A stretch of 64,000 nt of DNA from Iocasia fonsfrigidae (GCF_017751145.1 NZ_CP046640.1:3452137-3516136), one strand, 5' to 3'; counted from the stretch's first letter, positions 22,732 through 58,900 are shown. Program-made: numbers and translations. Notes: a model not told the origin generated them from the sequence alone.

Positions 22732-24363
22732 CTACCCCTTTGGTTCAATTATACCGCGGGGAACACATATCTTCTGTCCTATCTGTAAATTATTTGGGTC
22801 TATATTCGGGTTAGCTTCTATTAAGGCATCTACAGTAGTACGATATCTCCTAGCTATTTTCCAGAGTGTATCTCCTGCCTGCACCACATAAACTACATAA
22901 GATGGTGGACATTCATCATCAGCAGCTGGAGAAATAACCACCAGGTCTGTAACTATCTCCATCTGTCTAAACTCTGTTACCTTGGCAAACTTCCTGATAA
23001 CTATATCAAATTCTATTGCACTACATACCTGTGTACCATTGACTTCTTCACAGTCTGTCAATGATGCATTAACTTTAGTAACTTCTACCTCTGTGTGTGT
23101 ATTCATGCCAGGTTCAGTACCTGGTATATCAATAAAATTATCAAAATTAAAGTAGTTTCCCTCTGGAGTTTCAACAAAGTGTACTGGTTGTAAGAATTCT
23201 CCCTCTTCAGCAACACCAACATAAACAGCTGCTGCCTCTATATCCCCTTCCAGATAAACCCCATCCTCATCAGTTGTAGCTTCATACTCAACAATTCTGG
23301 CAGAGGGCTCAATAATTCTCTGGGCAAGTGGTTTTTCCGGTGGAATATTTAAAATACTACTAATGGTTTCGTGAACAACATCCTCACCTACTACATCTTC
23401 TACCCTGAGAAGCTCCCTTTCAATCTCAACCAGATCACTTATTATATCAGTTATTACTGTAACTTGTTTAGGTTCAGTAACCTTTACAAAGAATTGAACT
23501 ACAACATCAATTTCAACAGTATCCTCATCAATAAAATCGAAAGAAAGACGTTTAATTGTTAAATTGGTATGGACTGTCATGTCCTCTTCAGCCCCTGCAA
23601 CATCAACTGTTTCAGTGAAATGAATTGTATCTTCCAGAAAATGTACTGGTTGATCACCATCTTCTACATCAGCCACATACATTGCACCACCAAAAATATC
23701 CCCTTCGACAATAACACCTTCATTAGTAATCTCTGTTGTCACATCCTGTATCTCTGCTAAAACCTTTAATACCCTTTCAATAGGCGGTTTGCCCGGAGGC
23801 AGTTCAAGTCTACCAGTAATAACACTTGTAACCGTATTTTCACCTATAACATCTTCAATCCTTAATAACTCCTCAACTATATTTTCTTCTGGAATGCCAG
23901 TTACATCTGTCACTACTGTTATCTGCTGATACTCGGTCAGCTTAACAAACTTGCTTAATACTACATCAACTTCTACAGTACGGGGGGCATTTTCATTAAA
24001 GTCCCAGGAAACACGTCTTATATTAATATCTACAAAAACATTCATTCCCGGCTCTGCTTCAGGAAAATCAAAGAAATTGGTAAAAGTTAGCTGCCCTTCG
24101 AAGAAGTGAACCGGCTGTTGTGGTTCATCTTCAGGAACTATTCCAACATATACTACACCAGCCTCTATCGTACCTGTTACTTCAACACCACCATCCTCAA
24201 TATTGCTCTCTACATCAAGGAGATCAGCTTTTACATCAATAACCCTCTCAATATCTGGTTTCCCATTGGGAACGGTAATATTTTGACTGACAGTTTCACT
24301 GGCTACATCCTCACCTATTACGAATTCCACTCTTATTAATTCTTCATCAAAGTTAATTGCCAA
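22732..24363 (-). CDS. Acidic SPOCS triple-repeat protein with C-terminal LysM
   Basis: A 543-aa protein with three tandem SPOCS domains (about residues 8-140, 165-300 and 315-465), each opening with a VEGE/IGE-type segment and containing a YVG...QPVHF stretch and an EPGMN turn. A LysM (YVVQAGDTLWKIARRYRTT) lies at about 492-537. It is strikingly rich in Glu, Asp and Val. The family acts in the spore coat/exosporium assembly layer, and the LysM probably binds cortex peptidoglycan or its precursor. It has its own sigma-K-like promoter (16-bp spacer) and terminator, so it is a single-gene unit within the SPOCS array. Confidence 0.85.
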   Translation of the reverse strand: MAINFDEELIRVEFVIGEDVASETVSQNITVPNGKPDIERVIDVKADLLDVESNIEDGGVEVTGTIEAGVVYVGIVPEDEPQQPVHFFEGQLTFTNFFDFPEAEPGMNVFVDINIRRVSWDFNENAPRTVEVDVVLSKFVKLTEYQQITVVTDVTGIPEENIVEELLRIEDVIGENTVTSVITGRLELPPGKPPIERVLKVLAEIQDVTTEITNEGVIVEGDIFGGAMYVADVEDGDQPVHFLEDTIHFTETVDVAGAEEDMTVHTNLTIKRLSFDFIDEDTVEIDVVVQFFVKVTEPKQVTVITDIISDLVEIERELLRVEDVVGEDVVHETISSILNIPPEKPLAQRIIEPSARIVEYEATTDEDGVYLEGDIEAAAVYVGVAEEGEFLQPVHFVETPEGNYFNFDNFIDIPGTEPGMNTHTEVEVTKVNASLTDCEEVNGTQVCSAIEFDIVIRKFAKVTEFRQMEIVTDLVVISPAADDECPPSYVVYVVQAGDTLWKIARRYRTTVDALIEANPNIDPNNLQIGQKICVPRGIIEPKG

Positions 24364-26882: not shown

Positions 26883-28802
26883 CTAAAATTGTTCAACAAA
26901 AACCACTACTTCAACTGGAATCTGGCCTTCCCCGACAACATTCAAAATAATAGTCTCCTTGATAATAGTTTTTAATAAACCCTGTGGATCAAAAACATCA
27001 GTCACAACTGGAAAGGTCTCAATCCTGGTATCTATAGAATCATCTACTACCAGCACCTCTTCCCTGACCAGAATGGTCTCAGTAGTAATGCCTGGTCCTG
27101 TAATTGAACTTACAACATTGATAAACTCCGGACCTGCTGAACCAACACAGGCCTCCAGAACTATTAATTGGGATAAAAGACCACCACTAGCAAGTTTATA
27201 ACTTATATTCTCTATCTTTATAACCGGACTAAGTTGTTCAACTGGTATAGGTTCTGGCAACTTAACTTGAACAGTAAAGGGAATTGTTTCCTGCTGATAA
27301 TATACTATATTATCAGGACAGACATAAGCGATATCCTTAAGAATTTCACCACTTACTGAAACTAAATCATCAGTCAAGCCAGAGACTACAAGATTCTGGG
27401 CCTCAGCCTCAATGTTTTTTATCTTAATAGCTGGACACCCTAATTGTAGACTATTCTCTATAATCGCCTGCTGGCATGCTGATACCTCCTCTTCTCTGAC
27501 AATTGTTTTATAGATTATCTCTACTTCCTCAGCTGGTGGCTCTTCAACCCCTGAAATAAGTATCTGCCTGGTATTTTCACCAATGACTACCGGAAGAACA
27601 GCCTGTAAACCTTGCTCATCAACTAATATATTCAACTGGTTTAATTCTTCAAGCTGAACAGATATATCAAGGACTATTTCCTGATATAATAAATTATTGT
27701 CTCTCAAATTATAGATAATCTCTTCTATATTAATCAACGGTTTAAGCAGCTGGCCGTTTGAAGCCCCGGCTAGATCTAAAAAAGTACTAAAAGCTACATC
27801 TTCAACCTGATGATATTCAAGGTCATTAATGCCTATATAATATATCTGTTCATGGACAACTCCTCTTACTATTACTTTATTTTCAAAAATATCATAACGA
27901 ATATCTCTAATTTCCCTAACTATATTTTTTATTTTTTGAGCAGGTTGTTCCAGTAAAACAAGGTTTTCCTGCAGATACTGCCTGTCAGATTCACCAATTA
28001 TGAGGGGTAACTTAACCAGTAAATCATAGCCAGGGGCTATTCTTTCCTGAATAGTTTCACTTACCCGAACATAGAATTCCACTACAAGTTCCTGCTGTAG
28101 TGTATTTCCATCTGCTGAAAGTTGATAGCTGATGTGTTCTATAACAGCTTCTACTACTGCTTTCATACCTGGACTTACCCCTGGTAAGTCTATAAAGGTA
28201 TTAAAAGGAAAGTCTTCAGCCTGATGAAGAGCAGTATTATCTTCACTTATAAAAAATATCTGCTTGTGAATACTACCCTGGATTATTACTTTATCCATAA
28301 TCAACTCTATTTCCAGGTCCCTGACAGAACCCCTTACTTCATCTATTTTACTGGCCGTTTGATTTAACTGAACCTGATTCTCCCTGATTATTTGTTTTTG
28401 ACCATCAGCTACCAGGTGGTCAAGTTCAACAAGTCTGCCTGACTGGCTTAGTTCAACACCAATAGGCTCATCATTTTCGACCTTAACAAATATCTCTAAA
28501 ACAGCCTTTTGATCAATCAGCTCACCTGATGGACCTATATCTACTGACAGTTTCTCTATATTAACAACAATCTCTGCCTTCATACCCGGTTCTGCTCCAG
28601 GTATATCCAGAAATGTTGTAAAAGACATATCATCATCTATATGATATATAAGATTATCAACACCCACATAAAATATTTGTTTATGAAGGCAACCCTGAAC
28701 AAGTACTTTATCAGGAATAATATCATAAGTAAGTTTTACCACTTCAGCAGTAATATTCCTGATTTTTACTGCTGGTACCGGCATCTGTTCTGTTTTAAAC
28801 AT
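26883..28802 (-). CDS. SPOCS protein with four tandem repeats, no LysM
   Basis: A 639-aa protein made of four SPOCS-type domains (about residues 1-115, 125-265, 270-405 and 425-545) plus a diverged tail. The repeat signature VIIQG(S/V)(I/V)H(K/E)QI(F/Y)(F/Y)I recurs in the first three, with YHQ/LHQAED and a turn before each last strand. The fourth repeat (SGEILKDIAYVCPDN) is degenerate. It lacks signal peptide, membrane segment and LysM, so it may assemble by SPOCS-SPOCS contacts alone. It lies 74 bp upstream of the membrane-anchored SPOCS gene, each with a sigma-K-like promoter. Its closest relative here is that 601-aa protein. Confidence 0.82.
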   Translation of the reverse strand: MFKTEQMPVPAVKIRNITAEVVKLTYDIIPDKVLVQGCLHKQIFYVGVDNLIYHIDDDMSFTTFLDIPGAEPGMKAEIVVNIEKLSVDIGPSGELIDQKAVLEIFVKVENDEPIGVELSQSGRLVELDHLVADGQKQIIRENQVQLNQTASKIDEVRGSVRDLEIELIMDKVIIQGSIHKQIFFISEDNTALHQAEDFPFNTFIDLPGVSPGMKAVVEAVIEHISYQLSADGNTLQQELVVEFYVRVSETIQERIAPGYDLLVKLPLIIGESDRQYLQENLVLLEQPAQKIKNIVREIRDIRYDIFENKVIVRGVVHEQIYYIGINDLEYHQVEDVAFSTFLDLAGASNGQLLKPLINIEEIIYNLRDNNLLYQEIVLDISVQLEELNQLNILVDEQGLQAVLPVVIGENTRQILISGVEEPPAEEVEIIYKTIVREEEVSACQQAIIENSLQLGCPAIKIKNIEAEAQNLVVSGLTDDLVSVSGEILKDIAYVCPDNIVYYQQETIPFTVQVKLPEPIPVEQLSPVIKIENISYKLASGGLLSQLIVLEACVGSAGPEFINVVSSITGPGITTETILVREEVLVVDDSIDTRIETFPVVTDVFDPQGLLKTIIKETIILNVVGEGQIPVEVVVFVEQF

Positions 28803-45987: not shown

Positions 45988-47787
45988 TCAATTTTTATTT
46001 ACTATTAACTGGTAATTACCCATCTTTTTTAATATTTGAAGACATTTTTTTTCTTCACATGAGCGGTCAAGCTGTCTGCAGCTCTCAATAAAGCAACTTA
46101 GCTCTGGCAAGGCAAAACCATTTGATAAGTCTTTTTTGAGATAATAATAGGCCTTATCCCACTTAGCATATCTAAAAAATAACTTGCCGATATACCTATC
46201 AGATTCCCGTATTTTTAGTTTTTTAATGATATCAAGCATTATCTCTACTGCCCTATCATCACAATACTCAATTAATAGACTTAGATAAGCAACTGCTTTC
46301 TCATAAAACTTATATTTCGATAATATATTGTTAAAATGAAAAGAAAAATCTTTCCCTTTAAAATAAATATTATTATATAATTTTAATAACTCCCAGTCAC
46401 TATCTCCCAACAACTTAATCTGGTTAACAATACTTTTAAATTCTTTATCAACAGGCAGTAAAATATTTAATATCCAGCGGTGTTTCAGGGTATCCTTAAA
46501 ATGCTTAAAGGCTGGCGAGATACTTCTAAGTAATTTTAAGGCCAGTCTATAATCCTTCGTCTTTAATAGAATCCTGGCCTTCCAGTAATAATAACTATCT
46601 TTTATTTCTTTAAACTCCAGTGCTTCCTTTAAGATATCAAGAGCGGTATAATAATCACCACAATGGTAATAAATATCTGCCAGCAAGAGTTTTCCCTGAG
46701 GAGATACCAGCCTTTCCCTAAGATAACTATACCCCTCCAATTTATTAATACCTTTTTTTTCTAAATCTATTAGATTGGAAATTACTGCTTTATTACATCT
46801 ATCAAGCCTATGGGCCCTTCCAAAAAAGTAATTAGCCTTTTTAAAATGTCTTATCCCTTTATAAGCTAAACCCAATAAAAAATATAACTTGAAATTAATA
46901 TTTTTATCTTTTTCTTTATTTAATAATTTTTGCAGACAAATAATTGCCTGTTGATAATCCTTTAGAACAAACCTTAAATAACCTTCCCAGAGAGCAAATG
47001 TAAATTCCCCAGGAAAAAATTCCTCAGCCTGCTTAATCACTCTTTCAGCCCTCAAGAATTTTCCTTGATTTAATAGAATATAGATAGCTTTATCCAGCAG
47101 ATGACAGTTGTTTTCTTCTGCAGCCTCTTTATAAGCCTCCTGTATGATACCTCCTACTATATCTTCTCTATTTTCCACCTTTTTTAAGAAATTTTCCCCA
47201 CTTATCTCCTGGGAGTATGGGAAAACTGCTGTCAGGCCCTGACTCGTATAAAATTTCGGGTATTGGTAACAATTTGTTATTATAGGAAGCTGTAAGGTCT
47301 TAATACTCATCTTTCTAGTATTCCTGTAAATAGATTTTATAATACTACCATAATCCTCACCTTTAAAACACATACCCTGTTTATTGCGCAAAAGACGAAA
47401 TACTAAACAAGGCATTTCTAAATCTAAATCTTCAGGGCCCCTATCCGGCAGAGCCAGGCTAATTATCGGGAGATAAAACCCAAAATTATCTGACTGTTTG
47501 AGTAATAACCTCAACTGATTATAGTCACTGGCAAGCTCTTCCCCACCATGCAAAAAAAGTACCCAGTCACCCTCTGCTTTTTTCAATATATAATTCCTTG
47601 TCTCTGCAAAACTACTATCATTACAGGAATACACCCTGACCCCACAATCGGCTGCCACTGCAGCAGACCTATCATATGAATCTATATCAAGTACCAGTAT
47701 TTCATCTGCCAGTCCTTTGACACTGTTTATAGTACGGGCTATATAGTCTACCCTATCCTGAACAATAACACAAGCCGTCAACAACAT
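45988..47787 (-). CDS. GT2-like domain with TPR-type helical repeats, DxD motif lost
   Basis: A 599-aa protein. Residues 1-90 match the start of SunT-type GT2 domains (MLLTACVIVQDRVDYIARTI, EILVLDIDSYDRS, FAETRNYILKKAEGDWVLFL), but where relatives have DADEE this protein has HGGEE, so the metal-binding aspartates are gone. From about residue 215 to the end it is helical with TPR-like repeats (YFLLGLAYKGIRHFKKANYF, LLADIYYHCGDYYTALDIL). It may be a scaffold or an inactive transferase in the glycan pathway. GGGGG lies 6 bases before the ATG. Last gene of the seven-gene operon. Confidence 0.75.
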   Translation of the reverse strand: MLLTACVIVQDRVDYIARTINSVKGLADEILVLDIDSYDRSAAVAADCGVRVYSCNDSSFAETRNYILKKAEGDWVLFLHGGEELASDYNQLRLLLKQSDNFGFYLPIISLALPDRGPEDLDLEMPCLVFRLLRNKQGMCFKGEDYGSIIKSIYRNTRKMSIKTLQLPIITNCYQYPKFYTSQGLTAVFPYSQEISGENFLKKVENREDIVGGIIQEAYKEAAEENNCHLLDKAIYILLNQGKFLRAERVIKQAEEFFPGEFTFALWEGYLRFVLKDYQQAIICLQKLLNKEKDKNINFKLYFLLGLAYKGIRHFKKANYFFGRAHRLDRCNKAVISNLIDLEKKGINKLEGYSYLRERLVSPQGKLLLADIYYHCGDYYTALDILKEALEFKEIKDSYYYWKARILLKTKDYRLALKLLRSISPAFKHFKDTLKHRWILNILLPVDKEFKSIVNQIKLLGDSDWELLKLYNNIYFKGKDFSFHFNNILSKYKFYEKAVAYLSLLIEYCDDRAVEIMLDIIKKLKIRESDRYIGKLFFRYAKWDKAYYYLKKDLSNGFALPELSCFIESCRQLDRSCEEKKCLQILKKMGNYQLIVNKN

Positions 47788-47831
47788 ATAAATCCCCCAG
47801 TCTCAAATAAAAATAAGAACAATCTTTATCA

Positions 47832-48818
47832 TTATATGAGACCATTAAGTAAGTCGTTATATATTTTTTTGGTTTTTTCAGCTATTACCCCCCAGCCAAA
47901 TCTCTTAAGAATAATCTCAGGCAGTCCCTCTTTTAAAGGGGTATAATAGGCCTGAATGGTTTTTTCTCTAATTTCCTTACAGTCATCAGGACTGCAATAA
48001 TAAGCATAGTCAGCAAAATACTCCTGTGCTGTACCCCTGTTAGTGGTAACTAAATTACAACCAGCCAGACCTGCCTCTAAATTGACCAGGCCAGGAGTAT
48101 CATACCAGCTTGCTAATAAATGCACTCTAGCTTCCCCATAGTAAGCAAGTAATTCACTTTGTTTTAAACCAGTAATTATCTTAATCTGCCTTTTTTTTTC
48201 TGACATACATTGTTGATAATAAGCCCGATCATTTACATCTCCAATAATAGTAACCGGTATATTTAAATCGTTCAAGGCTCTGATTAAAGTCAACTGATTT
48301 TTCCGTTGGTGAATCCGACCTACTGAAATGATACCGCTCCTCTCTTTACAGGAACTATTATAAAAAAAGGGATTAACCCCATTATAGATAACCCTATGAG
48401 GTAATCCTGGGGCAAAATCCTTTTCTATTTCTAGCCATTCTCTTTCAGCATTTGGGGCAATCAAATCTGCCATAGAAAGGATTTGCCCCCTTTTCTGCTG
48501 AGCATTATTCCATTTTGCTAATTTAGAGGGAGCAGCCCACTCTAAATATTCCCTCATATTCCAATATATTGGTGTTATGATTAATGGTTTTCTAAATGAC
48601 TTTACTGTCAGACACTGCTTAAGAGATGAATCACACCTTAAAACATTAAAAAGATGTACCAGGTCATAATCTCTCATCATATCATTATCTAATTCAGTCC
48701 TCAAATCTATGTTCAACCCCACTTTCTCCAGGGCAGTAGTTAATTGTACAAGCTGAACAGTGTCACCAGCCCTGATACGAAAGAGGTCAGGTCTAGCCAG
48801 AAAAAGAATTTTCATCAC
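47832..48818 (-). CDS. GT4-type glycosyltransferase
   Basis: A 328-aa GT-B enzyme. The N-terminal half has FLARPDLFRIRAGDTVQLV (glycine-poor acceptor loop) and the linker YNGVNPFFYNS; the donor half has GIISVGRIHQRKNQLTLIRA, VTIIGDV and the acidic donor motif VHLLASWYDTPGLVNLEAGL, an E-x7-E-like element where the first Glu is replaced by Asp. It would add a sugar from a nucleotide donor in the cytosol. Its start overlaps the stop of the preceding GT2 by four bases, so the two proteins are co-translated. Confidence 0.82.
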   Translation of the reverse strand: MMKILFLARPDLFRIRAGDTVQLVQLTTALEKVGLNIDLRTELDNDMMRDYDLVHLFNVLRCDSSLKQCLTVKSFRKPLIITPIYWNMREYLEWAAPSKLAKWNNAQQKRGQILSMADLIAPNAEREWLEIEKDFAPGLPHRVIYNGVNPFFYNSSCKERSGIISVGRIHQRKNQLTLIRALNDLNIPVTIIGDVNDRAYYQQCMSEKKRQIKIITGLKQSELLAYYGEARVHLLASWYDTPGLVNLEAGLAGCNLVTTNRGTAQEYFADYAYYCSPDDCKEIREKTIQAYYTPLKEGLPEIILKRFGWGVIAEKTKKIYNDLLNGLI

Positions 48819-49534
48819 CCTGTCTCTCCCCCCAGATACTTTCTAATCACCGCTGGATGTCTACCCTTAAATTCCCCTACTGAGATCTCAGGATAATCAT
48901 CCTGTCTATTGTCATTTGTTTTGAAGCCTTTTCCTAGTGCATAATGATAATGAAAGATTGTTATATCCTCAACTACCTTGGCTGTTTCACACAGGAAAGG
49001 ATATTTACCATAAAATAATAACTGACTATGATTTCCTTTATTCTCATAGCCAGCACCCTTTTTCTTTATCAGTCGGTAAACGGGTCCCTCCCAACAGGGA
49101 TCTCCTACTACATTTTTTCTAACACAGGACATCCCTCCCCAGAAAGACAGAAAAGAAAACCCGTAGATCTGGGTTTTCTGATTAGAAAGCAGCATCTTAT
49201 TAAAAAAATTGAGGAACTTATCTGAGATAAACTCATCTATATCAAGTATCAGTATCCACTCCCCCTTAGACTTATTAAGCAAAAAGTTTCTCCTCTTACC
49301 TTCAGCCCATTGATATGGTTTCCCCTCCTGTGGAATCTGCCAGAAACGTAATCCCTGATAGCTTTTTTGATAATTGCGTACTATTTTAATAGTATTATCC
49401 TGACTACCACCATCCAGTAACAATATTTCATCAGCAAATTGGGAAACAGCATCCAGATATAGAGGAAGAAAAAATTCCTCATTCAGTACTGGTGCTATGA
49501 CTGACAGAGATATTTTTTTATTCACTGCTTTCAC
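48815..49534 (-). CDS. GT2-family glycosyltransferase
   Basis: A 239-aa enzyme with a complete GT-A core: LSVIAPVLNEEFFLPLYLDA, EILLLDGGSQDNTIKIV, GKRRNFLLNKSKGEWILILD and LDIDEFI with the DxD intact. The C-terminal part (EGPVYRLIKKKGAGYENK and IFHYHYALGKG) is typical of the WaaE/KdtX-like group. The start is a GTG at 49534 overlapping the end of the large GT gene by 17 bp. It contrasts with the neighbouring 599-aa protein, whose equivalent motif is destroyed. Confidence 0.87.
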   Translation of the reverse strand: MKAVNKKISLSVIAPVLNEEFFLPLYLDAVSQFADEILLLDGGSQDNTIKIVRNYQKSYQGLRFWQIPQEGKPYQWAEGKRRNFLLNKSKGEWILILDIDEFISDKFLNFFNKMLLSNQKTQIYGFSFLSFWGGMSCVRKNVVGDPCWEGPVYRLIKKKGAGYENKGNHSQLLFYGKYPFLCETAKVVEDITIFHYHYALGKGFKTNDNRQDDYPEISVGEFKGRHPAVIRKYLGGETG

Positions 49535-52517
49535 CAGTTAACCACTCCTTTAAAATACTCAACCAGTTTTTACTATTCTTCTTAATAACCGGCTCTTCTA
49601 TTTTAACCAGATTATCTGATAACAGCTCATCTTCAGGCAGCTCAACTGATAGACTACCTTTATCTCCTTCAATTATATCCTCCAGTTCCTCTTCCTGCGG
49701 GTATAAGTCATAATAGGCAAAATATATTAGACTATTTATTTTTTCTGCCCTCCTCAGCCATGTTTTATTTTTAATAAGTTTATGTCTATCCTCTCTGTTG
49801 TCCTCACTAACATCATTATTTATCAAATCTGCCGCCTGACTAATAAAATCCGTTTTATCTTTAGCTATAGTAATCAGCTTTTCAAACTTCTTTACCTCTG
49901 GTAATTCGGTAGTCAGTACAGGCTTACCAGCAGCAAGATATTCATATAGTTTTACAGGATCACTCATAAGAGTTAAACTGTTTTTAATAAAGGGTATAAT
50001 CGCTAAATCAAAATAATATAGGTAATCTGCCAGAAGATGGTAGGATTTTTCACCCAGCAAACTTACATTTGAAAGATTGCTTAGATGACTAATATCTGTA
50101 CTTACCTCCCCAATCAAAACTACAGCTACTTCTGGCAGAGAAGCAGCAAGACTTTTAACAAGCTCCACATCAAACCATGACGATATTGCACCATAATAAC
50201 CTATAATTTTCCTACTATCTGGTATATCATTAGGTTTAATAGCTGGTTTATAATTATAGTTAAAATATCTGGTATCTACACCATTAGGGACCAAATAAGT
50301 ATTATCATTAACTGCTTTTTTTTCTTCATATAGACCTGTAGATGACGTTAAAACCAGATCAGCTAGATTTAAGAGTTTCTGCTCAGCTTTTTTTATTACA
50401 GCCTCATGATGAACCAGGTCTTCAAACTCCGTATAGTTATCTATACAATCATAGATTAATAAACTATATTCCCAAAACTGTAATAAAGGGGTCCAGTAAG
50501 GGGCATTAAGTAAAACAATACAGTTTTCAAAATTCAATTCCCTTAACAGAGAATTAATTTCCTGTCCTAACCTATCCCTTTTATTATGTTCGAGATTATA
50601 GAGTACTGTTCCATAACCATGTGGAGAATAAATATGTATATTCTCTTCCACCTCAATAGTTTCTCCACTCCCACATACTGGATTAAGATAGAGTATTTCG
50701 TAACCAAGCTGTGTCAGGTTTCTCATCAAATGCTGAGGACGCTGCTGCCTAAAATCCCACGGTATTAAACCGGCGACCATAATTTTTCGTTTCTGATGAC
50801 GCTTTTCACTGCCAGCTATAACTTCTCCCCATTTACTCTTAAATCTCTTTCTACCTGCACTAAAATATCTATCCTTTTTTAATTTGTTATTTTTATTACC
50901 AGACTTTAAACTGCCTTCATGGTGATGAATAACCCTTGCCTGAGGACAGTAAACCACCCGGTAGCCTTTTTCCCTGGCTCGTAATGAATAGTCCAATTCC
51001 TCAAAATAAAAGAAATAACCCTCATCAAAAAGCCCCAGAACTGGCAAAAGATCCCTTTTAATAAGATAGCAGGCACCTCCTACACTTAATAAATCTTCCT
51101 GCTGGTCATATACACCTGGTCTATCCAGCTCCTTCCAACCCCTTGGTTTAAAATCATCCCTTAAACTATCAACACCAGCACCTACAATTAGCCCTTCTTG
51201 ATTAATCAACTTCGGACCTACTACAGCAACATCATCCCCGGCGGCTACCTTAATCATCTTTCCCAACCAACATGTTGTTACCTCAATATCACTATTTAAT
51301 AAAACTATATATTCAGCACTTCCGGCAATAATACCTTGATTACAAGCCCGGGCATAACCTAAATTTTCTTTATTCTCTATTAATAAAATATCTTCCTGTT
51401 TTTTAAGATACTCTATGCTGCCGTCGCTACTACCATTATCAACTACAATAATATTATAATCTTCTCTGGTCTTACTCTTAATACTTACCAGACACTTCTT
51501 GAGGTAATCTAAAGTATTATAATTGACTATGATCAAATCAACTGGATTCTTCGTCAATCTTTTTGAATAATTCATCTGAGATTTATATTTGTGTTGCTTA
51601 TCTACTTCTTTGGAGTCAGCGGCAGGGTTTACTCCCTGTAAGACATCTTCAAAATACCCTGCCCAATCCTCTCCAACCTTATTTAACTTATACTCTTTAA
51701 CCAATCTCTCAGCTTCTACTAAGAGACTATTTCTCCACTGCCCCATCTTATATGACCTAATAATAATTAAGGCCAGTTCAAGAGGGGTATATTTACTTAA
51801 TTCAAGGGGATAACCCCATTTCCTTTCAGACAAATTAATGCTGATTGTCAGTACACCTGCTGCCATTGACCAGAGGGGAAGGAGTGGAAATTCATTCCTT
51901 CCAAGGTATATTAAATAAAATCCCCTGCTGAGTAAGCCTATAATCGGTTTATGATCAATATCTTCATAATAATAATTTATTTCTGTATCAAAAAAATACT
52001 TTTCTGGTGAATTAAGGATTACAACCCCATCATGAGTGATTGAAGAAGCTGCAATCTCAAGGGCAGAAATTATTTTTGATAAACCTTTTTTATCTAAACT
52101 ATCACCAGCCACTACTATTTTATCCCTTTTTTTATCTTCTTGAAGATAAAGTCTATCAGGTATCCCCGGTTTTAAGCTATTAAAACCAATCACCCTGATA
52201 CCAGCAGAAATTTCCTGCTTTTTCCCGGTATTATTTAAATAAACCAGTTCCCCCCTGGATAATAAACTTAATTGTCTTAATAAATCCAGTTGTGTACTTA
52301 AAATAATATCTGCTTCTGGAATCTCACTGGCAGAAAATCTATTAGTTAACCAGTGTATCTCAATACTAGCTTTAGGCAAGATATTATAATTCTTTATTTC
52401 AGGAATATACATTAAAACCTTGATATTTTTATTTTCCTTTAACCACCTGGCAATTTCAAAGAGCGACTTTATTATCATAATATTATCTTGCTCAGAAATT
52501 ATAAAAATAACTTGCAT
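49518..52517 (-). CDS. Large multi-domain glycosyltransferase (GT-B-like / GT2 / GT4 fusion)
   Basis: A 999-aa protein. Residues 1-290 look like a degenerate GT-B half (MQVIFIISEQDNIMIIKSLF, DKIVVAGDSLDKKGLSKII). Residues about 325-570 are a GT2 domain (VDLIIVNYNTLDYLKKCLVS, IVVDNGSSDGS, LLNSDIEVTTCWLG, VGGACYLIKRDLLPVLGLFD). Residues about 600-920 are a GT4 domain (MVAGLIPWDFRQQRPQHLMR, VPNGVDTRYF, DLAIIPFIKNSLTLMSDPVK, YEYLAAGKPVLTTELPE). The frame extends to 52550, but GGGGGG lies 6 bases before the ATG at 52517. It probably adds several sugars in succession. Fusions of this kind occur in surface-glycan clusters. Confidence 0.85.
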   Translation of the reverse strand: MQVIFIISEQDNIMIIKSLFEIARWLKENKNIKVLMYIPEIKNYNILPKASIEIHWLTNRFSASEIPEADIILSTQLDLLRQLSLLSRGELVYLNNTGKKQEISAGIRVIGFNSLKPGIPDRLYLQEDKKRDKIVVAGDSLDKKGLSKIISALEIAASSITHDGVVILNSPEKYFFDTEINYYYEDIDHKPIIGLLSRGFYLIYLGRNEFPLLPLWSMAAGVLTISINLSERKWGYPLELSKYTPLELALIIIRSYKMGQWRNSLLVEAERLVKEYKLNKVGEDWAGYFEDVLQGVNPAADSKEVDKQHKYKSQMNYSKRLTKNPVDLIIVNYNTLDYLKKCLVSIKSKTREDYNIIVVDNGSSDGSIEYLKKQEDILLIENKENLGYARACNQGIIAGSAEYIVLLNSDIEVTTCWLGKMIKVAAGDDVAVVGPKLINQEGLIVGAGVDSLRDDFKPRGWKELDRPGVYDQQEDLLSVGGACYLIKRDLLPVLGLFDEGYFFYFEELDYSLRAREKGYRVVYCPQARVIHHHEGSLKSGNKNNKLKKDRYFSAGRKRFKSKWGEVIAGSEKRHQKRKIMVAGLIPWDFRQQRPQHLMRNLTQLGYEILYLNPVCGSGETIEVEENIHIYSPHGYGTVLYNLEHNKRDRLGQEINSLLRELNFENCIVLLNAPYWTPLLQFWEYSLLIYDCIDNYTEFEDLVHHEAVIKKAEQKLLNLADLVLTSSTGLYEEKKAVNDNTYLVPNGVDTRYFNYNYKPAIKPNDIPDSRKIIGYYGAISSWFDVELVKSLAASLPEVAVVLIGEVSTDISHLSNLSNVSLLGEKSYHLLADYLYYFDLAIIPFIKNSLTLMSDPVKLYEYLAAGKPVLTTELPEVKKFEKLITIAKDKTDFISQAADLINNDVSEDNREDRHKLIKNKTWLRRAEKINSLIYFAYYDLYPQEEELEDIIEGDKGSLSVELPEDELLSDNLVKIEEPVIKKNSKNWLSILKEWLTGESSE

Positions 52518-52542
52518 ACTATTCCCCCCACTTAATTCTTCA

Positions 52543-53616
52543 CTACTCATATAATGCTAGCTGACTCTTATCCCCTAACAATAATTCATGAATACCCGGC
52601 TTACTTTTTCTATCTTCAATCACTACGTCTCTACCAATCAGACTATTAGCAATCCTTTTCTGGATACCAGAAATACGGGTATTCTCCATTACTATGCTTT
52701 TTTCCAGTTCACTGTTTATTATCTGTACCCCGCTACCTAAAGAGGTATATGGCCCAATATATGAGTCTTCAATCAAACAGCTCTCTCCAATAGCTACTGG
52801 TCCTGCAATAACTGAATTTTTTATAATACTTTCCCGGCCAAGGGCAATGCGTCCAGACAAATGAGAAGATAAAGCAACTTGACCACAATTAGTAGGGTTA
52901 AGGTCTTCCAGTAAAAAGCGGTTTACTTCCAATACATCCTCTTTTTTACCTGTATCTTTCCACCAACCATCTATCAAATAAGGTAAGACCTTTCCACCAT
53001 GATCAATAAGATATTGAATAGCATCAGTTATCTCCAGCTCTCCCCTCCAGGAAGGTTTAATACTATTAACAGCTCTAAAGATTTTATGATTAAATATATA
53101 AATCCCAACCAATGCCTTATTGCTTATAAAATTTACTGGCTTTTCTACCAAACGCTTTACATTATGATCATTATCCAGTACAGCAACCCCAAATTGCTGT
53201 GGATTATCTACTTCTGTTAATAAAATATTAATATCTTCCCCATTATTACCATATTCATTAACAAAAGATTTAATTCCTCTTCTAAGTATATTATCTCCCA
53301 GATACATCACAAAATTGTCATCACCTATAAATGGTCTGGCAATCTTAACTGCATGGGCCAGTCCACGGGGGGAATCCTGGACTATATATGTTATATTTAA
53401 ACCCCATTGCTCTCCATCCCCGACTACTTCTTTTATAAGATATCCTGTTTGTTTATCTATAACAATTCCTGCCCTTTTAATGCCTGCATCTGCAATATCA
53501 TCAAGGACATAAAAGAGGATAGGTCTATTAGCAACAGGAATTAATTGTTTAGCATAGCTAAAAGTAATAGGACGCAGTCTGGTACCACTCCCACCACTTA
53601 ATATTAATGCTTTCAT
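52543..53616 (-). CDS. Sugar-1-phosphate nucleotidyltransferase, long RmlA type
   Basis: A 357-aa enzyme that makes a dNDP- or NDP-sugar, most likely dTDP-glucose. The nucleotide loop is LILSGGSGTRLRPITFSYAK, followed by QLIPVANRPILFYVLDDI and the metal Asp in FVMYLGDNILRRG. After about residue 240 a left-handed beta-helix follows (hexapeptide-like turns: IIKNSVIAGPVAIGESCLIE and further), which marks the long RmlA subgroup. Bacillus SpsI, a related enzyme in a sigma-K-controlled spore polysaccharide operon, is a useful comparison. Its ATG directly follows the TAA of the GH18 gene. No rmlB, C or D is in the window. Confidence 0.88.
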   Translation of the reverse strand: MKALILSGGSGTRLRPITFSYAKQLIPVANRPILFYVLDDIADAGIKRAGIVIDKQTGYLIKEVVGDGEQWGLNITYIVQDSPRGLAHAVKIARPFIGDDNFVMYLGDNILRRGIKSFVNEYGNNGEDINILLTEVDNPQQFGVAVLDNDHNVKRLVEKPVNFISNKALVGIYIFNHKIFRAVNSIKPSWRGELEITDAIQYLIDHGGKVLPYLIDGWWKDTGKKEDVLEVNRFLLEDLNPTNCGQVALSSHLSGRIALGRESIIKNSVIAGPVAIGESCLIEDSYIGPYTSLGSGVQIINSELEKSIVMENTRISGIQKRIANSLIGRDVVIEDRKSKPGIHELLLGDKSQLALYE

Positions 53617-54558
53617 TTACTTCACCTCTGTTATTAGCTGCCAGATACCGGGATCCTCCTGACCAGGACGCCAGAATGCTACCCCGGCAAGTTGATATTC
53701 CTGGATTAGTTTTAGTTTTCTTGCAATACTTACCTTGTTTTCAAACCAGACCTCATGGGCTTCATTATTTTCTTTATATAAGAAATAGGGTGAACTTGAT
53801 TCCTGGTCCCAGTCTATCTGCAGCTTATATTTACTGGCAATATTCATAACCTGTGAATATATCAACCCACTGGCTCTTTTATCAGAATCAATAGTCCAGT
53901 CATAGCCATATAAACCCAGCGCTAAAAAAATTTTTTCGATAGGAATCTCTATAATAGCATAATCGATAACATCCTGGATCCAGTTCAATGGTGCTATAGG
54001 TCCAGGTGGCCCTCCAGGCCAGTGATAATCGTAGGCCATAATAATTATACTATCAACTATCTCCCCTAATATATGATAATCATATGCACCTGACCAGGTA
54101 GAATCCTTATTATTTTCAACTTTAGCAGGAATTGATAAACCGATTTTTATATTGTGTTCATGTAGTTTACTGGTGACTTTTTTAATAAATTCGGCGAATG
54201 GCTCCTTGTTACTATATTTCACACCCTCCATATTAATGTTTATCCCCTGGAAACCATATTTATTTAAGAAAGGAATTAAATCAGCCAGCATTGCTCGGGT
54301 AGAATTATCATCTTCTATGATAATGTTGCTAACCTTACTGGCCAATTGATAGTTTTGAAGCAGGGGAATAATCTCTTCAACATTGTAATGTCCCGCTATC
54401 AATGATAACTCCCCTGTAAAATCCTTAATAAGCAAACTGCCATTTTCCTTTATTTCTAACCAGGTTGGTAGGATTTTATTGAGACAACTACTGTTTTCCA
54501 TTATTGAACTTAAACCCTTTTTATTATTTAATAAATGATACCCTAAGACAATAAACAA
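53617..54558 (-). CDS. GH18-like protein of the spore-glycosylase type, catalytic motif altered
   Basis: A 313-aa TIM-barrel protein related to the catalytic part of YaaH/SleL cortex-fragment enzymes. Family stretches: ELSLIAGHYNVEEIIPLL, VDSIIIMAYDYHWPGGPPGP followed by IAPLNWIQDVIDYAI, and LAGVAFWRPGQEDPG. The active-site strand reads FQGININMEG (residues 103-112): the general acid Glu111 is kept, but the two preceding aspartates of DxxDxDxE are N107 and N109, and the first is Q104. Activity may be lost or altered. There is no LysM and no signal peptide. Second gene of the operon, 14 bp after the protease. Confidence 0.82.
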   Translation of the reverse strand: MFIVLGYHLLNNKKGLSSIMENSSCLNKILPTWLEIKENGSLLIKDFTGELSLIAGHYNVEEIIPLLQNYQLASKVSNIIIEDDNSTRAMLADLIPFLNKYGFQGININMEGVKYSNKEPFAEFIKKVTSKLHEHNIKIGLSIPAKVENNKDSTWSGAYDYHILGEIVDSIIIMAYDYHWPGGPPGPIAPLNWIQDVIDYAIIEIPIEKIFLALGLYGYDWTIDSDKRASGLIYSQVMNIASKYKLQIDWDQESSSPYFLYKENNEAHEVWFENKVSIARKLKLIQEYQLAGVAFWRPGQEDPGIWQLITEVK

Positions 54559-54571
54559 TTAATTAACCCCC

Positions 54572-55576
54572 TTAAAACACAATATTCAATTTTTCCATAA
54601 CATTATCAATCCGGTTACAGACAGTTGCCTGATCAGAACCAGCAAATAATAAACCAACAGCATTGTTATCCATATCAAGAACCAGTGAACCACTATCCCC
54701 TGCTTTTGATAAAGGAGTGGTTACTAGCTGATCTTCAAAAATAGCTACCTCTGACTCAGACATATTTACCTTTACTACTGTTCCCATAGCAATAATCTTA
54801 CCTGTTGTATAACCACTGGTCCTACCGCTTTTCTGTATTTTCATATCAAGCTCAGCCTCTTTTGCTCCCTTAACCTCCCCTATGTCAAGGATTTCTGTTT
54901 TAAGGTCTTTTACAGAAACAGGTTTAGCCACAGCACAATCAACCAGGTTGTTACCCTCTTCTTTGAAAAATTTCATATTATAACTGGGTCTAAAAAAGTG
55001 AATCAATAGATTTGCCAGTCTTTCAACAGCAATAGCTACCCCGCACTGTGGTTCACCATTCCCACTCTTAATAGGCACATATTTCTCTAGATAAGCAATA
55101 ATATCATCTGGTTTACTACCATCATCATAAACACCAGGTTGTAATATTGGATCCCCTTTTTGGGCTCTATTATCATGACCATTGGTAATATTAGCCAGAA
55201 CATGATTATTAGACAGAATCAAAGGTTCACCTGTTTTTCTATCCTTTACAACCGCACCAAAGGTCCCAGCTGTGATCTTATAATGTCCTATGCTAACACC
55301 AGGTTGAGCCGGACGCATTCTACCAGTCCTGGACTCTAAAAAACGCAGTTCTCCTACTTCAATAACATCTGTTTTAACTTTCTCTACAGACTGTGGGATG
55401 AAGTCATTTTTTTTAAGCTTATGTGATGGGAGTTTTTTTTCAACCAGGACCATAATAGCTTCTTCCCCTATTTTTTTACCCCTTTTCTCCTTAATACCAT
55501 AACCCAGACCAATAACATTTTTTAAACCCATAAAATTCTTTTTATATTTATTAATAATCCTTTTATAATCAGTCAT
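54572..55576 (-). CDS. Trypsin-like serine protease, cytosolic
   Basis: A 334-aa chymotrypsin-fold protein. The triad is visible: His in LILSNNHVLANI, Asp in NNLVDCAVAKP, Ser in KAGDSGSLVLDMD. The fold begins near residue 92 after an N-terminal segment (NVIGLGYGIKEKRGKKIGEE, residues 21-40) seen in other bacterial relatives. No signal peptide is present. The frame has an upstream ATG at 55591, but GGAGGG lies just before the ATG at 55576. First gene of the operon, behind a near-consensus sigma-K site, so a role in processing spore-envelope proteins in the mother cell is likely. Target unknown. Confidence 0.82.
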   Translation of the reverse strand: MTDYKRIINKYKKNFMGLKNVIGLGYGIKEKRGKKIGEEAIMVLVEKKLPSHKLKKNDFIPQSVEKVKTDVIEVGELRFLESRTGRMRPAQPGVSIGHYKITAGTFGAVVKDRKTGEPLILSNNHVLANITNGHDNRAQKGDPILQPGVYDDGSKPDDIIAYLEKYVPIKSGNGEPQCGVAIAVERLANLLIHFFRPSYNMKFFKEEGNNLVDCAVAKPVSVKDLKTEILDIGEVKGAKEAELDMKIQKSGRTSGYTTGKIIAMGTVVKVNMSESEVAIFEDQLVTTPLSKAGDSGSLVLDMDNNAVGLLFAGSDQATVCNRIDNVMEKLNIVF

Positions 55577-55604
55577 TTCTTTTCCCTCCATAAATTGATA
55601 TTTC

Positions 55605-55632
55605 TATAATATTCAGAAGGGATTCAATTAGT
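55605..55632 (-). promoter_or_regulatory. Near-consensus sigma-K-like promoter of the protease/glycan operon
   Basis: Minus strand AC (55632-55631), 17 bp, AATATTATA (55613-55605); only the first base of the -10 departs from CATANNNTA. The start codon lies about 29 bp downstream. Confidence 0.5.
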
Positions 55633-55650
55633 GAAGGATGTAAAAATACA

Positions 55651-55684
55651 AAAACCAGCAAGCTTAATCCAGCTTACTGGTTTT
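55651..55684 (-). terminator. Terminator of veg
   Basis: AAAACCAG (55651-55658) and CTGGTTTT (55677-55684) enclose a second short AAGC/GCTT stem; on the minus strand five T follow. Confidence 0.8.
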
Positions 55685-55707
55685 CATATCTTGTATTTCA
55701 TTTTTGT

Positions 55708-55974
55708 TTAAACAATACCAATCTTAGTATTTGCATCCTTTAACTTTAATTCTACATTATCTGTTAAAAGGTCGGCATAACTATAAGAAAGACGCCTAAT
55801 CTGTGCATTATCATCCACCTTTACTACAAACACATTGGGGTGGGTCTTTTCTAAAACACCTTCTTTTTCTAAACTCTTTCTCCTACCGCGATTAGCCTTA
55901 ATCATAACCTCCTGGCCTACAAAGGAATTAACGTTTTCCCTAATCTCGGTTAATACATTTAGATTTTTTGCCAT
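55708..55974 (-). CDS. veg: Veg protein
   Basis: An 88-aa protein of the Veg family, in Bacillus linked to biofilm-gene control and matching the usual length of about 86. The family core is clear: EIRENVNSFVGQEVMIKANR, then GRRKSLEKEGVLEKTHPNVF and VVKVDDN, then LSYSYADLLTDNVEL. An in-frame extension to 56082 is only the untranslated leader; AAGGTGG lies 6 bases before the ATG at 55974. Two strong tandem sigma-A promoters precede it, as in Bacillus. It lies just after yabG, the conserved order. Confidence 0.95.
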   Translation of the reverse strand: MAKNLNVLTEIRENVNSFVGQEVMIKANRGRRKSLEKEGVLEKTHPNVFVVKVDDNAQIRRLSYSYADLLTDNVELKLKDANTKIGIV

Positions 55975-56149: not shown

Positions 56150-56950
56150 TTACGGATACCGCATCCTCATCTTTCCTCTTGTCTCTATACCGCCTATCCC
56201 TCCTTTACCTGATACAGTATTGCTAATAACGTCTTGAACAGGGATTATCTCCCCGATAGAAGTAGAAACCACCTTTTCTACTACCAGAATCGGATCAAGA
56301 AAATGAATTAATTTATTACCTGGTGAACTAGCATAATTTGCACCAATGTCTATTAAACGGTCATAGTCTGATTGGCATGCACCCGCAAAAATAACTAAAC
56401 TATCCAGATCAGAGATTATATCACGGGCATATTTAACAGCTTCAACAAAGAAATCAGATGTGTGGTAAAGCCTATTATTTACTTCTCCATCATGACCTGT
56501 AAGAACCAGTATATCTGGTTTTATTTCTTTTACAAGCCCCCCTATTTTCGCTGGTTGTCCCTTTTCAGGAATAAATAATCCCTTGACAGATATATCTAAA
56601 TTATTATAATTTGCTATTGATAAGTCAAGGTACTCTTTATCCCCATCAATATGAAGTACCTTCACAGGGTATTCCTGAAAGGAATCTTTGTTATTTCTCC
56701 CCTGTTTGCCATTTAAGACAAGGTATCTCTGCTGGCGTTGAAGACAATCATAGGATTCAAGCAGCAATTCCTTTTTTAAGGCCCTACTATCTTTCTGGTT
56801 CATCTTAAGCAGGTCACTAAGTTCAGCATCAGCCATTAACCTTATACGATAACTCCTTAAAATAGCACGACTCCCCTCTATCCTTTCTATTCTAAAAACA
56901 ACATCCGATTTATATGAACGCCTTGTAACAAAATCTCCCACTTCAAACAC
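56150..56950 (-). CDS. yabG: Sporulation protease YabG
   Basis: A 266-aa cysteine-type protease made in the mother cell that trims coat proteins (in Bacillus, SpoIVA, SafA and others). Recognised by KVLHIDGDKEYLDLSI, PDILVLTGHDGE, the conserved LVIFAGACQSDYDRLIDIGA with its Cys, NYASSPGNKLIHFLDPILV and the C-terminal GKGGIGGIETRG. Slightly shorter than the Bacillus form. A perfect sigma-K-like promoter precedes it, matching its known sigma-K control, and this supports the other sites of the same form in this window. Confidence 0.96.
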   Translation of the reverse strand: MFEVGDFVTRRSYKSDVVFRIERIEGSRAILRSYRIRLMADAELSDLLKMNQKDSRALKKELLLESYDCLQRQQRYLVLNGKQGRNNKDSFQEYPVKVLHIDGDKEYLDLSIANYNNLDISVKGLFIPEKGQPAKIGGLVKEIKPDILVLTGHDGEVNNRLYHTSDFFVEAVKYARDIISDLDSLVIFAGACQSDYDRLIDIGANYASSPGNKLIHFLDPILVVEKVVSTSIGEIIPVQDVISNTVSGKGGIGGIETRGKMRMRYP

Positions 56951-56981: not shown

Positions 56982-57009
56982 TAATATATGATACAGGGAA
57001 ATTAAATGT
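56982..57009 (-). promoter_or_regulatory. Sigma-K promoter of yabG
   Basis: Minus strand AC (57009-57008), 17 bp, CATATATTA (56990-56982): exact consensus, and yabG is a known sigma-K gene in Bacillus. Confidence 0.8.
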
Positions 57010-58587: not shown

Positions 58588-58615
58588 ACAAATAAATTCC
58601 CCCTTTCATATATTA
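58588..58615 (+). promoter_or_regulatory. Sigma-K-like promoter of the 82/154-aa operon
   Basis: AC (58588-58589), 17 bp, CATATATTA (58607-58615): exact match with the yabG -10. The ATG is 36 bp downstream. Confidence 0.65.
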
Positions 58616-58651
58616 TCTTAACAAAGACTTTTTTATGAAGGGAGGGCAATT

Positions 58652-58900
58652 ATGATCTTTCCATTTTTTGACAGCCAGGATAGTAACTACAATGCCTATA
58701 ATCTTTTTCTAATCTTAATTTTACTTATCCTTTCTGAAGATGTATTAACTATGATTAAAAAATTATCAAAAAATGCCGCAGAAAAAGAAACTGCTGGTCA
58801 AAAGGAAAAGGGAGAAATAAAAAGAGGGTTTAACATTCTTCCTATCCAGAAAAAAGAAGAAAAAAGCCGGCCTAAGACTGAAGACGGGGACACAGAATAA
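58652..58900 (+). CDS. Small membrane protein, unknown (sporulation-type)
   Basis: An 82-aa protein I do not recognise. It starts MIFPFFDSQDSNYNAYNLF, has one hydrophobic helix (NLFLILILLILSEDVLTM, about residues 17-34) and a highly charged Lys/Glu-rich tail. GGGAGG lies before the ATG. It is followed 16 bp later by the 154-aa gene, which also contains an FGLLGLILLIQIVD helix of the same style, suggesting they act together. A sigma-K-like promoter precedes it. The hydrophobic helix plus charged tail resembles small coat or outer-forespore-membrane proteins. Function unknown. Confidence 0.7.
   Translation: MIFPFFDSQDSNYNAYNLFLILILLILSEDVLTMIKKLSKNAAEKETAGQKEKGEIKRGFNILPIQKKEEKSRPKTEDGDTE

Follow-up and report, generated by a model that had tools for sequence, protein, structure and literature searches.

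Organization of the locus

Within a 64,000-nucleotide stretch of the Iocasia fonsfrigidae genome (GCF_017751145.1, NZ_CP046640.1:3452137-3516136; hereafter the window), seven co-directional open reading frames (ORFs) occupy the minus strand between positions 45988 and 55591, directly downstream of the sporulation protease gene yabG and of veg. An earlier note had listed their contents from the sequence alone, and family matches gave the same account: a trypsin-type serine protease of 334 residues (54572-55576); a GH18 protein with a TTG start codon (53617-54558); a long-form RmlA, or glucose-1-phosphate thymidylyltransferase (52543-53616; TIGR01208, 468.7 bits against a cut-off of 320.25); and four glycosyltransferase (GT) proteins. 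These last are GT1010, a 1010-residue protein with GT2 and C-terminal GT4-type domains (49518-52550), the GT2 enzyme GT239 (48815-49534), the GT4-type enzyme GT328 (47832-48818), and GT/TPR, in which a GT2 domain is followed by TPR repeats (45988-47787). The genes are as tightly packed as had been claimed. By ORF coordinates, 13 bp separate the protease and GH18 genes, 0 bp the GH18 and RmlA genes, and 44 bp the GT328 and GT/TPR genes. Three junctions overlap, rather than the two counted before, depending on the start codons chosen (RmlA-GT1010 by 8 bp, GT1010-GT239 by 17 bp, and GT239-GT328 by 4 bp). The protease ORF as annotated begins at 55591; translation probably starts at 55576 instead, because a Shine-Dalgarno sequence, GGAGGG, lies at 55589-55584 and the orthologues align from that point.

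On the same strand, the operon is preceded by ksgA, an RNase-H-like gene, yabG (56150-56950; PF05582, with a TIGR02855 score of 267.4, just below the cut-off of 270.4), and veg (55708-55974). It is followed by a Na/Pi cotransporter and a PhoB/PhoR pair. The genome, a single contig of 3.93 Mb whose nearest named relatives are Halanaerobiales, contains spoIVA and a sigma-K gene scoring over its curated cut-off.

The protease and its distribution

The protease matched no NCBIfam family, and its Pfam match was only partial, to the C-terminal domain of plant Nal1. Two alignments, one of 17 copies and one of 13 diverse copies, show no variation in the catalytic histidine and aspartate or in the GDSGS serine motif. 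A fold match obtained from sequence only was too short for placement and was set aside; the question was settled by a structural model. In the AlphaFold model (mean predicted local distance difference test score 74, with weak loops), the closest solved structure is rice NARROW LEAF 1 (NAL1), with a Z score of 23.7 over 270 residues at 3.5 Å and a model range of 1-334. Among structural matches to just the protease domain, the best had Z 17.5, and NAL1 was also reached by sequence profile in both the N-terminal and the catalytic parts. Membership in the NAL1-like fold family is thus well supported by the model. The features of this class are present, namely the full-length fold with its N-terminal domain and the catalytic His, Asp, and Ser, from which proteolytic activity is predicted. 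Membership of the fold does not imply a shared function: the two proteins are about 21% identical, and NAL1 acts in plant development, with no link to spores. No account of the protease in sporulation was found in the open-access literature, and it is an undescribed, unnamed trypsin-type protease. Some genomes (L058, L059, and L060) contain a second, more distant copy elsewhere, which in L058 and L059 is ∼30-40 residues shorter ahead of the catalytic aspartate.

To follow the distribution of the gene, 299 genomes were drawn evenly from the phylum, and spoIVA was taken as the marker of spore formation (257 genomes with it, 42 without). The protease occurs in 120 of the 299 genomes; all 120 carriers possess spoIVA, and none of the 42 genomes lacking spoIVA encodes it. 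Of 61 near relatives, 29 have spoIVA, and 27 of these encode the protease; none of the 32 lacking spoIVA does. The hypergeometric probability for the 299-genome tally, 4.8e-11, like the p values over orthologues given below, ignores phylogeny. Named carriers include Moorella, Sporomusa, Desulforamulus, Natroniella, Halonatronum, Fervidicola, and Symbiobacterium. In many families the gene directly follows yabG or veg, and SipL, YkwD, and SpoIID/CwlD proteins are further neighbors.

The setting beside yabG has a precedent. In a published sporulation signature, whose genes occur in at least 95% of spore formers and <5% of other genomes, no sigma-K gene other than yabG is strictly sporulation-specific (PMC10681294). 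In Clostridioides difficile, sipL stands behind veg (PMC10681294), so that a spore-surface gene occupies the same place behind yabG and veg, although there it is sipL and here a serine protease. Both sipL and the protease are present, near each other, in Desulforamulus and Fervidicola. In the window itself, two proteins with SipL (SPOCS) domains, one of them with LysM, are encoded at 22732-24363 and 26883-28802 (both minus strand), ∼30 kb away from yabG and not behind veg. Between yabG and veg of Fervidicola (L103:8050-9498) lies a gene in which a SpoIID domain is fused to a CwlD-like amidase, and ORFs of similar length occupy this position in other Tepidanaerobacter-type genomes.

The putative promoter region

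Upstream of the protease gene, a promoter-like site of the form AC-N17-AATATTATA lies at 55605-55632 (minus strand). It is separated from veg by a terminator-like hairpin of 20 pairs at 55641-55690 (minus strand; -26.2 kcal/mol, z -8.6). The decameric pattern GAATAnnATA is invariant in all 12 order-level copies and the CAC of the -35 part nearly so; mean column identity is 0.96 in the core against 0.52 in the 60 columns upstream. The site is credible as a promoter because all 12 copies keep it. Sites of the type AC-N17-CATATA[TG]TA occur at the same register in the leaders of yabG and dpaA, the yabG site of the window being ACATTTAATTTCCCTGTATCATATATTA at 56982-57009 (minus strand), whereas the spoIVA leader has a different site. 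Among 95 protease leaders, 30 contain CATA-type and 30 GAATA-type elements (60/95), compared with 5 of 120 control leaders from veg, ksgA, and the RNase-H-like gene. A sigma-H reading, prompted by the GAAT, was dropped on inspection by eye, as the site has no AGGA -35 element. From these comparisons, recognition by sigma-K appears to be the best reading of the promoter.

Predicted pairing between the promoter region and the ribosome-binding site

Upstream of the predicted transcription start, the sequence CCTTCA (55632-55637, minus strand), referred to here as the arm, is predicted to pair with TGGAGG at 55590-55585, over the ribosome-binding site (RBS), in RNA that reads through from upstream. 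The leader has a predicted folding energy of -12.8 kcal/mol in read-through RNA and of 0 in RNA begun at the putative start. The yabG promoter-like site likewise has an arm that pairs with the yabG RBS.

When arms were compared with dinucleotide shuffles, pairing reached p<0.05 at 35 of 95 protease leaders and 13 of 35 yabG leaders, against 14 of 154 controls (Fisher 1.8e-8; the loci are related, so that p values over orthologues overstate independence). Arms paired better with their own than with swapped partners at the protease (Wilcoxon 3e-11) and yabG (0.003), with no such preference at veg or ksgA. Base composition partly confounds this comparison with swapped partners and does not confound the shuffle test. 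When the 12 order-level leaders were folded de novo to a consensus, the only pairing obtained was that between arm and RBS. The consensus stem of five class-level copies comprises 17 pairs, most of them conserved, with some G-U exchanges; L049 taken singly has z -5.5. Loci whose upstream gene lies on the opposite strand show less of this effect (one-sided p 0.036), which is what a guard against read-through would predict.

The test was negative at SipL, YkwD, and two further neighbor genes. In a scan of 58 ORFs in the window, yabG ranked first (single-copy p=0.003); 6 of the 58 fell below 0.05 and one below 0.01, and the ORFs as a whole are only slightly above chance. At dpaA, where start codons are uncertain, support for the arm is borderline (combined p 0.0026; 2 of 10 leaders). 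One dpaA leader (L171, G010) has a long inverted repeat around the promoter, AACCAGAC ... GTCTGGTT, with an arm-test p of 0.003.

A read-through hairpin of the same arrangement has been proposed for sigG of Bacillus subtilis (PMC5942855). There, too, the RBS of read-through RNA pairs with an arm located ahead of the start, and promoter-initiated RNA lacks the arm, as would RNA from the putative start here. In contrast, sigG is a forespore sigma gene of Bacilli, whereas the present arms belong to the protease and yabG, mother-cell-type genes, in many Clostridia-type families. Pairing of an upstream arm with the RBS at these two genes is new here. By analogy with sigG, the arm should silence read-through RNA and leave promoter-initiated RNA unaffected.

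The GH18 protein and the glycan genes

The GH18 domain is most similar to the solved spore enzymes YaaH (E 5.8e-48), SleL, and YdhD. It differs from these glycosylases in having no LysM match in Pfam and in its catalytic motif, where Asp-x-Glu reads Asn-Met-Glu, so that the glutamate is kept and the aspartate replaced by asparagine. In the same slot, the copy of L032 also has asparagine, that of L036 is without the glutamate, and that of L049 consists of only the last 140 residues. The altered motif and truncation in several copies suggest that some of them may bind without cleaving. RmlA clearly belongs to the long form, and because RmlB is encoded elsewhere in the genome, synthesis of deoxythymidine diphosphate (dTDP)-rhamnose is possible.

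Conservation of gene order had been set beforehand as a test of the operon. The outcome was mixed: the order yabG-veg-protease-GH18 is kept in all 11 order-level genomes with spoIVA, and a complete sugar cassette is rare. It was found in order in one family relative (L031), and in L033 it is present up to the end of the contig. Other genomes have a reduced sugar part: GT/TPR only in L032, L034, L035, and L038, GT4 only in L037 and L041, and none in L039. The class-level L049 comes close to the full set: GT/TPR is missing and GH18 is truncated, but the protease comes first, followed in order by this GH18, RmlA, several GTs, GT239, and GT328. Six genes recur in order there, at 38%-55% identity. 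From this pattern, the front of the operon looks to be a stable spore pair and the rear an exchangeable glycan cassette.

The view that the locus differs from the sps system of Bacillus is upheld by gene content. The B. subtilis sps operon comprises spsABCDEFGIJKL and spsM, of which spsIJKL are the dTDP-rhamnose genes (PMC7439481). An RmlA homolog and glycosyltransferases for a spore-surface glycan are common features; mother-cell sigma-K control is shown for sps and putative here. In contrast to sps, the present operon includes a protease and a GH18 protein, has RmlA alone of the dTDP-rhamnose set, and stands behind yabG and veg.

Interpretation and alternatives

Taken together, these observations favor, with a probability of about 0.6, a sporulation operon active late in the mother cell, with products that mature and decorate the spore surface and whose mistimed production is restrained by a terminator and an arm. 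The seven genes would then probably help to finish the spore surface. A sigma-K-type promoter behind the veg terminator would fire late in the mother cell. The protease, which has no evident export signal, may cut one or more coat or basement-layer proteins in the mother-cell cytosol beside YabG, as its neighbors and distribution suggest. The GH18 protein, judged by its family, would join the spore envelope as a glycan hydrolase or binder of the SleL/YaaH type. RmlA would make dTDP-glucose, used directly or converted to dTDP-rhamnose with the distant RmlB, and the glycosyltransferases would build a lineage-specific spore glycan. Mistimed production would be limited by the terminator behind veg and then by the arm, whose statistical pairing over orthologues suggests that it masks the protease RBS in read-through RNA; RNA begun at the operon's own promoter would lack the arm and hence have an open RBS.

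Several results weigh against this reading. A sigma-K matrix trained on the sites of yabG and dpaA, which themselves score 9.9-16.8 bits, gives the protease site 6.3 bits, within chance (shuffle p=0.13), and a relaxed form of the pattern matches the window 21 times where 10.7 matches are expected. Genome-wide, CACT-N15-GAATANNATA has 2 matches against 3 in a reversed control and AC-N17-CATATATTA has 13 against 16, so that neither is in excess. The arm of the window's protease gene, tested singly, is likewise within chance (p=0.24), and its GH18 protein has the altered catalytic motif described above. The protease is missing from 137 genomes with spoIVA; with ∼half of such genomes lacking the gene, sporulation does not, as a rule, require it. 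Measured against the signature genes, it is absent from genomes without spoIVA (0/42) but present in only 120 of 257 with it, short of near-universality. In the main text and tables of a Moorella spore proteome paper, the protease was not identified. The earlier note had called the site near-consensus for sigma-K and the only promoter-like signal. Neither description was borne out, given the scores above and 77 sigma-A-like matches in the region, against 53.6 ± 8.6 in shuffles, one of them overlapping the protease site itself. The link to sporulation stands and the sigma-K type is probable from sequence comparison only, the promoter of the single copy having been overrated.

CATA-type -10 elements are common to both mother-cell factors, sigma-E and sigma-K. 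The site might therefore be recognized by sigma-E, either alone or followed by sigma-K, as in C. difficile yabG, which has been reported to be first expressed under sigma-E; a candidate sigma-E gene adjoins sigG in this genome. The leader, however, has CAC at the -35 place, like dpaA, and is without the ATATTTT found upstream of spoIVA, and a sigma-E-like matrix gives nothing above shuffles, which makes this explanation unlikely. Glycosyltransferase operons are commonly vegetative, and the same bases score 9/12 as a sigma-A site (TTCACT-N18-TATTAT), as would suit an operon for ordinary envelope polysaccharide. That the promoter is vegetative is nevertheless very improbable, since the lead gene is confined to spore formers, the invariant G and A of GAATA fall outside the sigma-A -10 element, the element is CATA in other clades, and a terminator with an anti-read-through arm would be pointless for a gene that is on during growth.

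Two further doubts concern parts of the late mother-cell reading. The seven genes may not form one unit, the sugar genes being a passing insertion in the slot behind a protease-GH18 spore pair. Relatives differ in how much of the sugar part accompanies this pair (all of it, a single gene, or nothing), which lends the idea some weight, but the junctions abut or overlap and six genes keep their order in the distant L049, and such a split seems somewhat doubtful. The arm could be a by-product of pyrimidine-rich spacers or of an inverted repeat bound by protein at the DNA level, and play no part in translation; several order-level copies, that of the window included, fail to beat composition-keeping shuffles. 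Against this, dinucleotide shuffles and swapped partners both score lower over the orthologues, neighboring and other sporulation genes lack the pairing, and the arm is placed either at -35 or between -35 and -10, depending on the family. The tolerance of G-U substitutions in the stem also fits RNA better than a DNA palindrome, and a by-product seems less likely than not.

Confined to spore formers and placed next to yabG in many families, this second protease offers a concrete candidate for coat maturation; it is also the bacterial relative of a plant enzyme of agronomic interest. Beyond the earlier account, the analysis adds the setting behind yabG and veg, the confinement of the protease to spore formers, and the arm. 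In the arm, mother-cell-type genes have a counterpart to the device proposed for sigG. A wider generalization is tentative, at slightly less than even odds: late mother-cell genes behind vegetative genes may be widely insulated in Clostridia-type spore formers by an arm overlapping the promoter, with promoter choice setting translatability, and the first such gene here would be an undescribed NAL1-type spore protease beside YabG.

Another ORF of the window

At 58588-58900 (plus strand), divergent from ksgA, an 82-residue ORF without a family match lies behind a perfect AC-N17-CATATATTA site. It perhaps encodes a small spore protein. Its leader also has a pairing arm (p=0.03).

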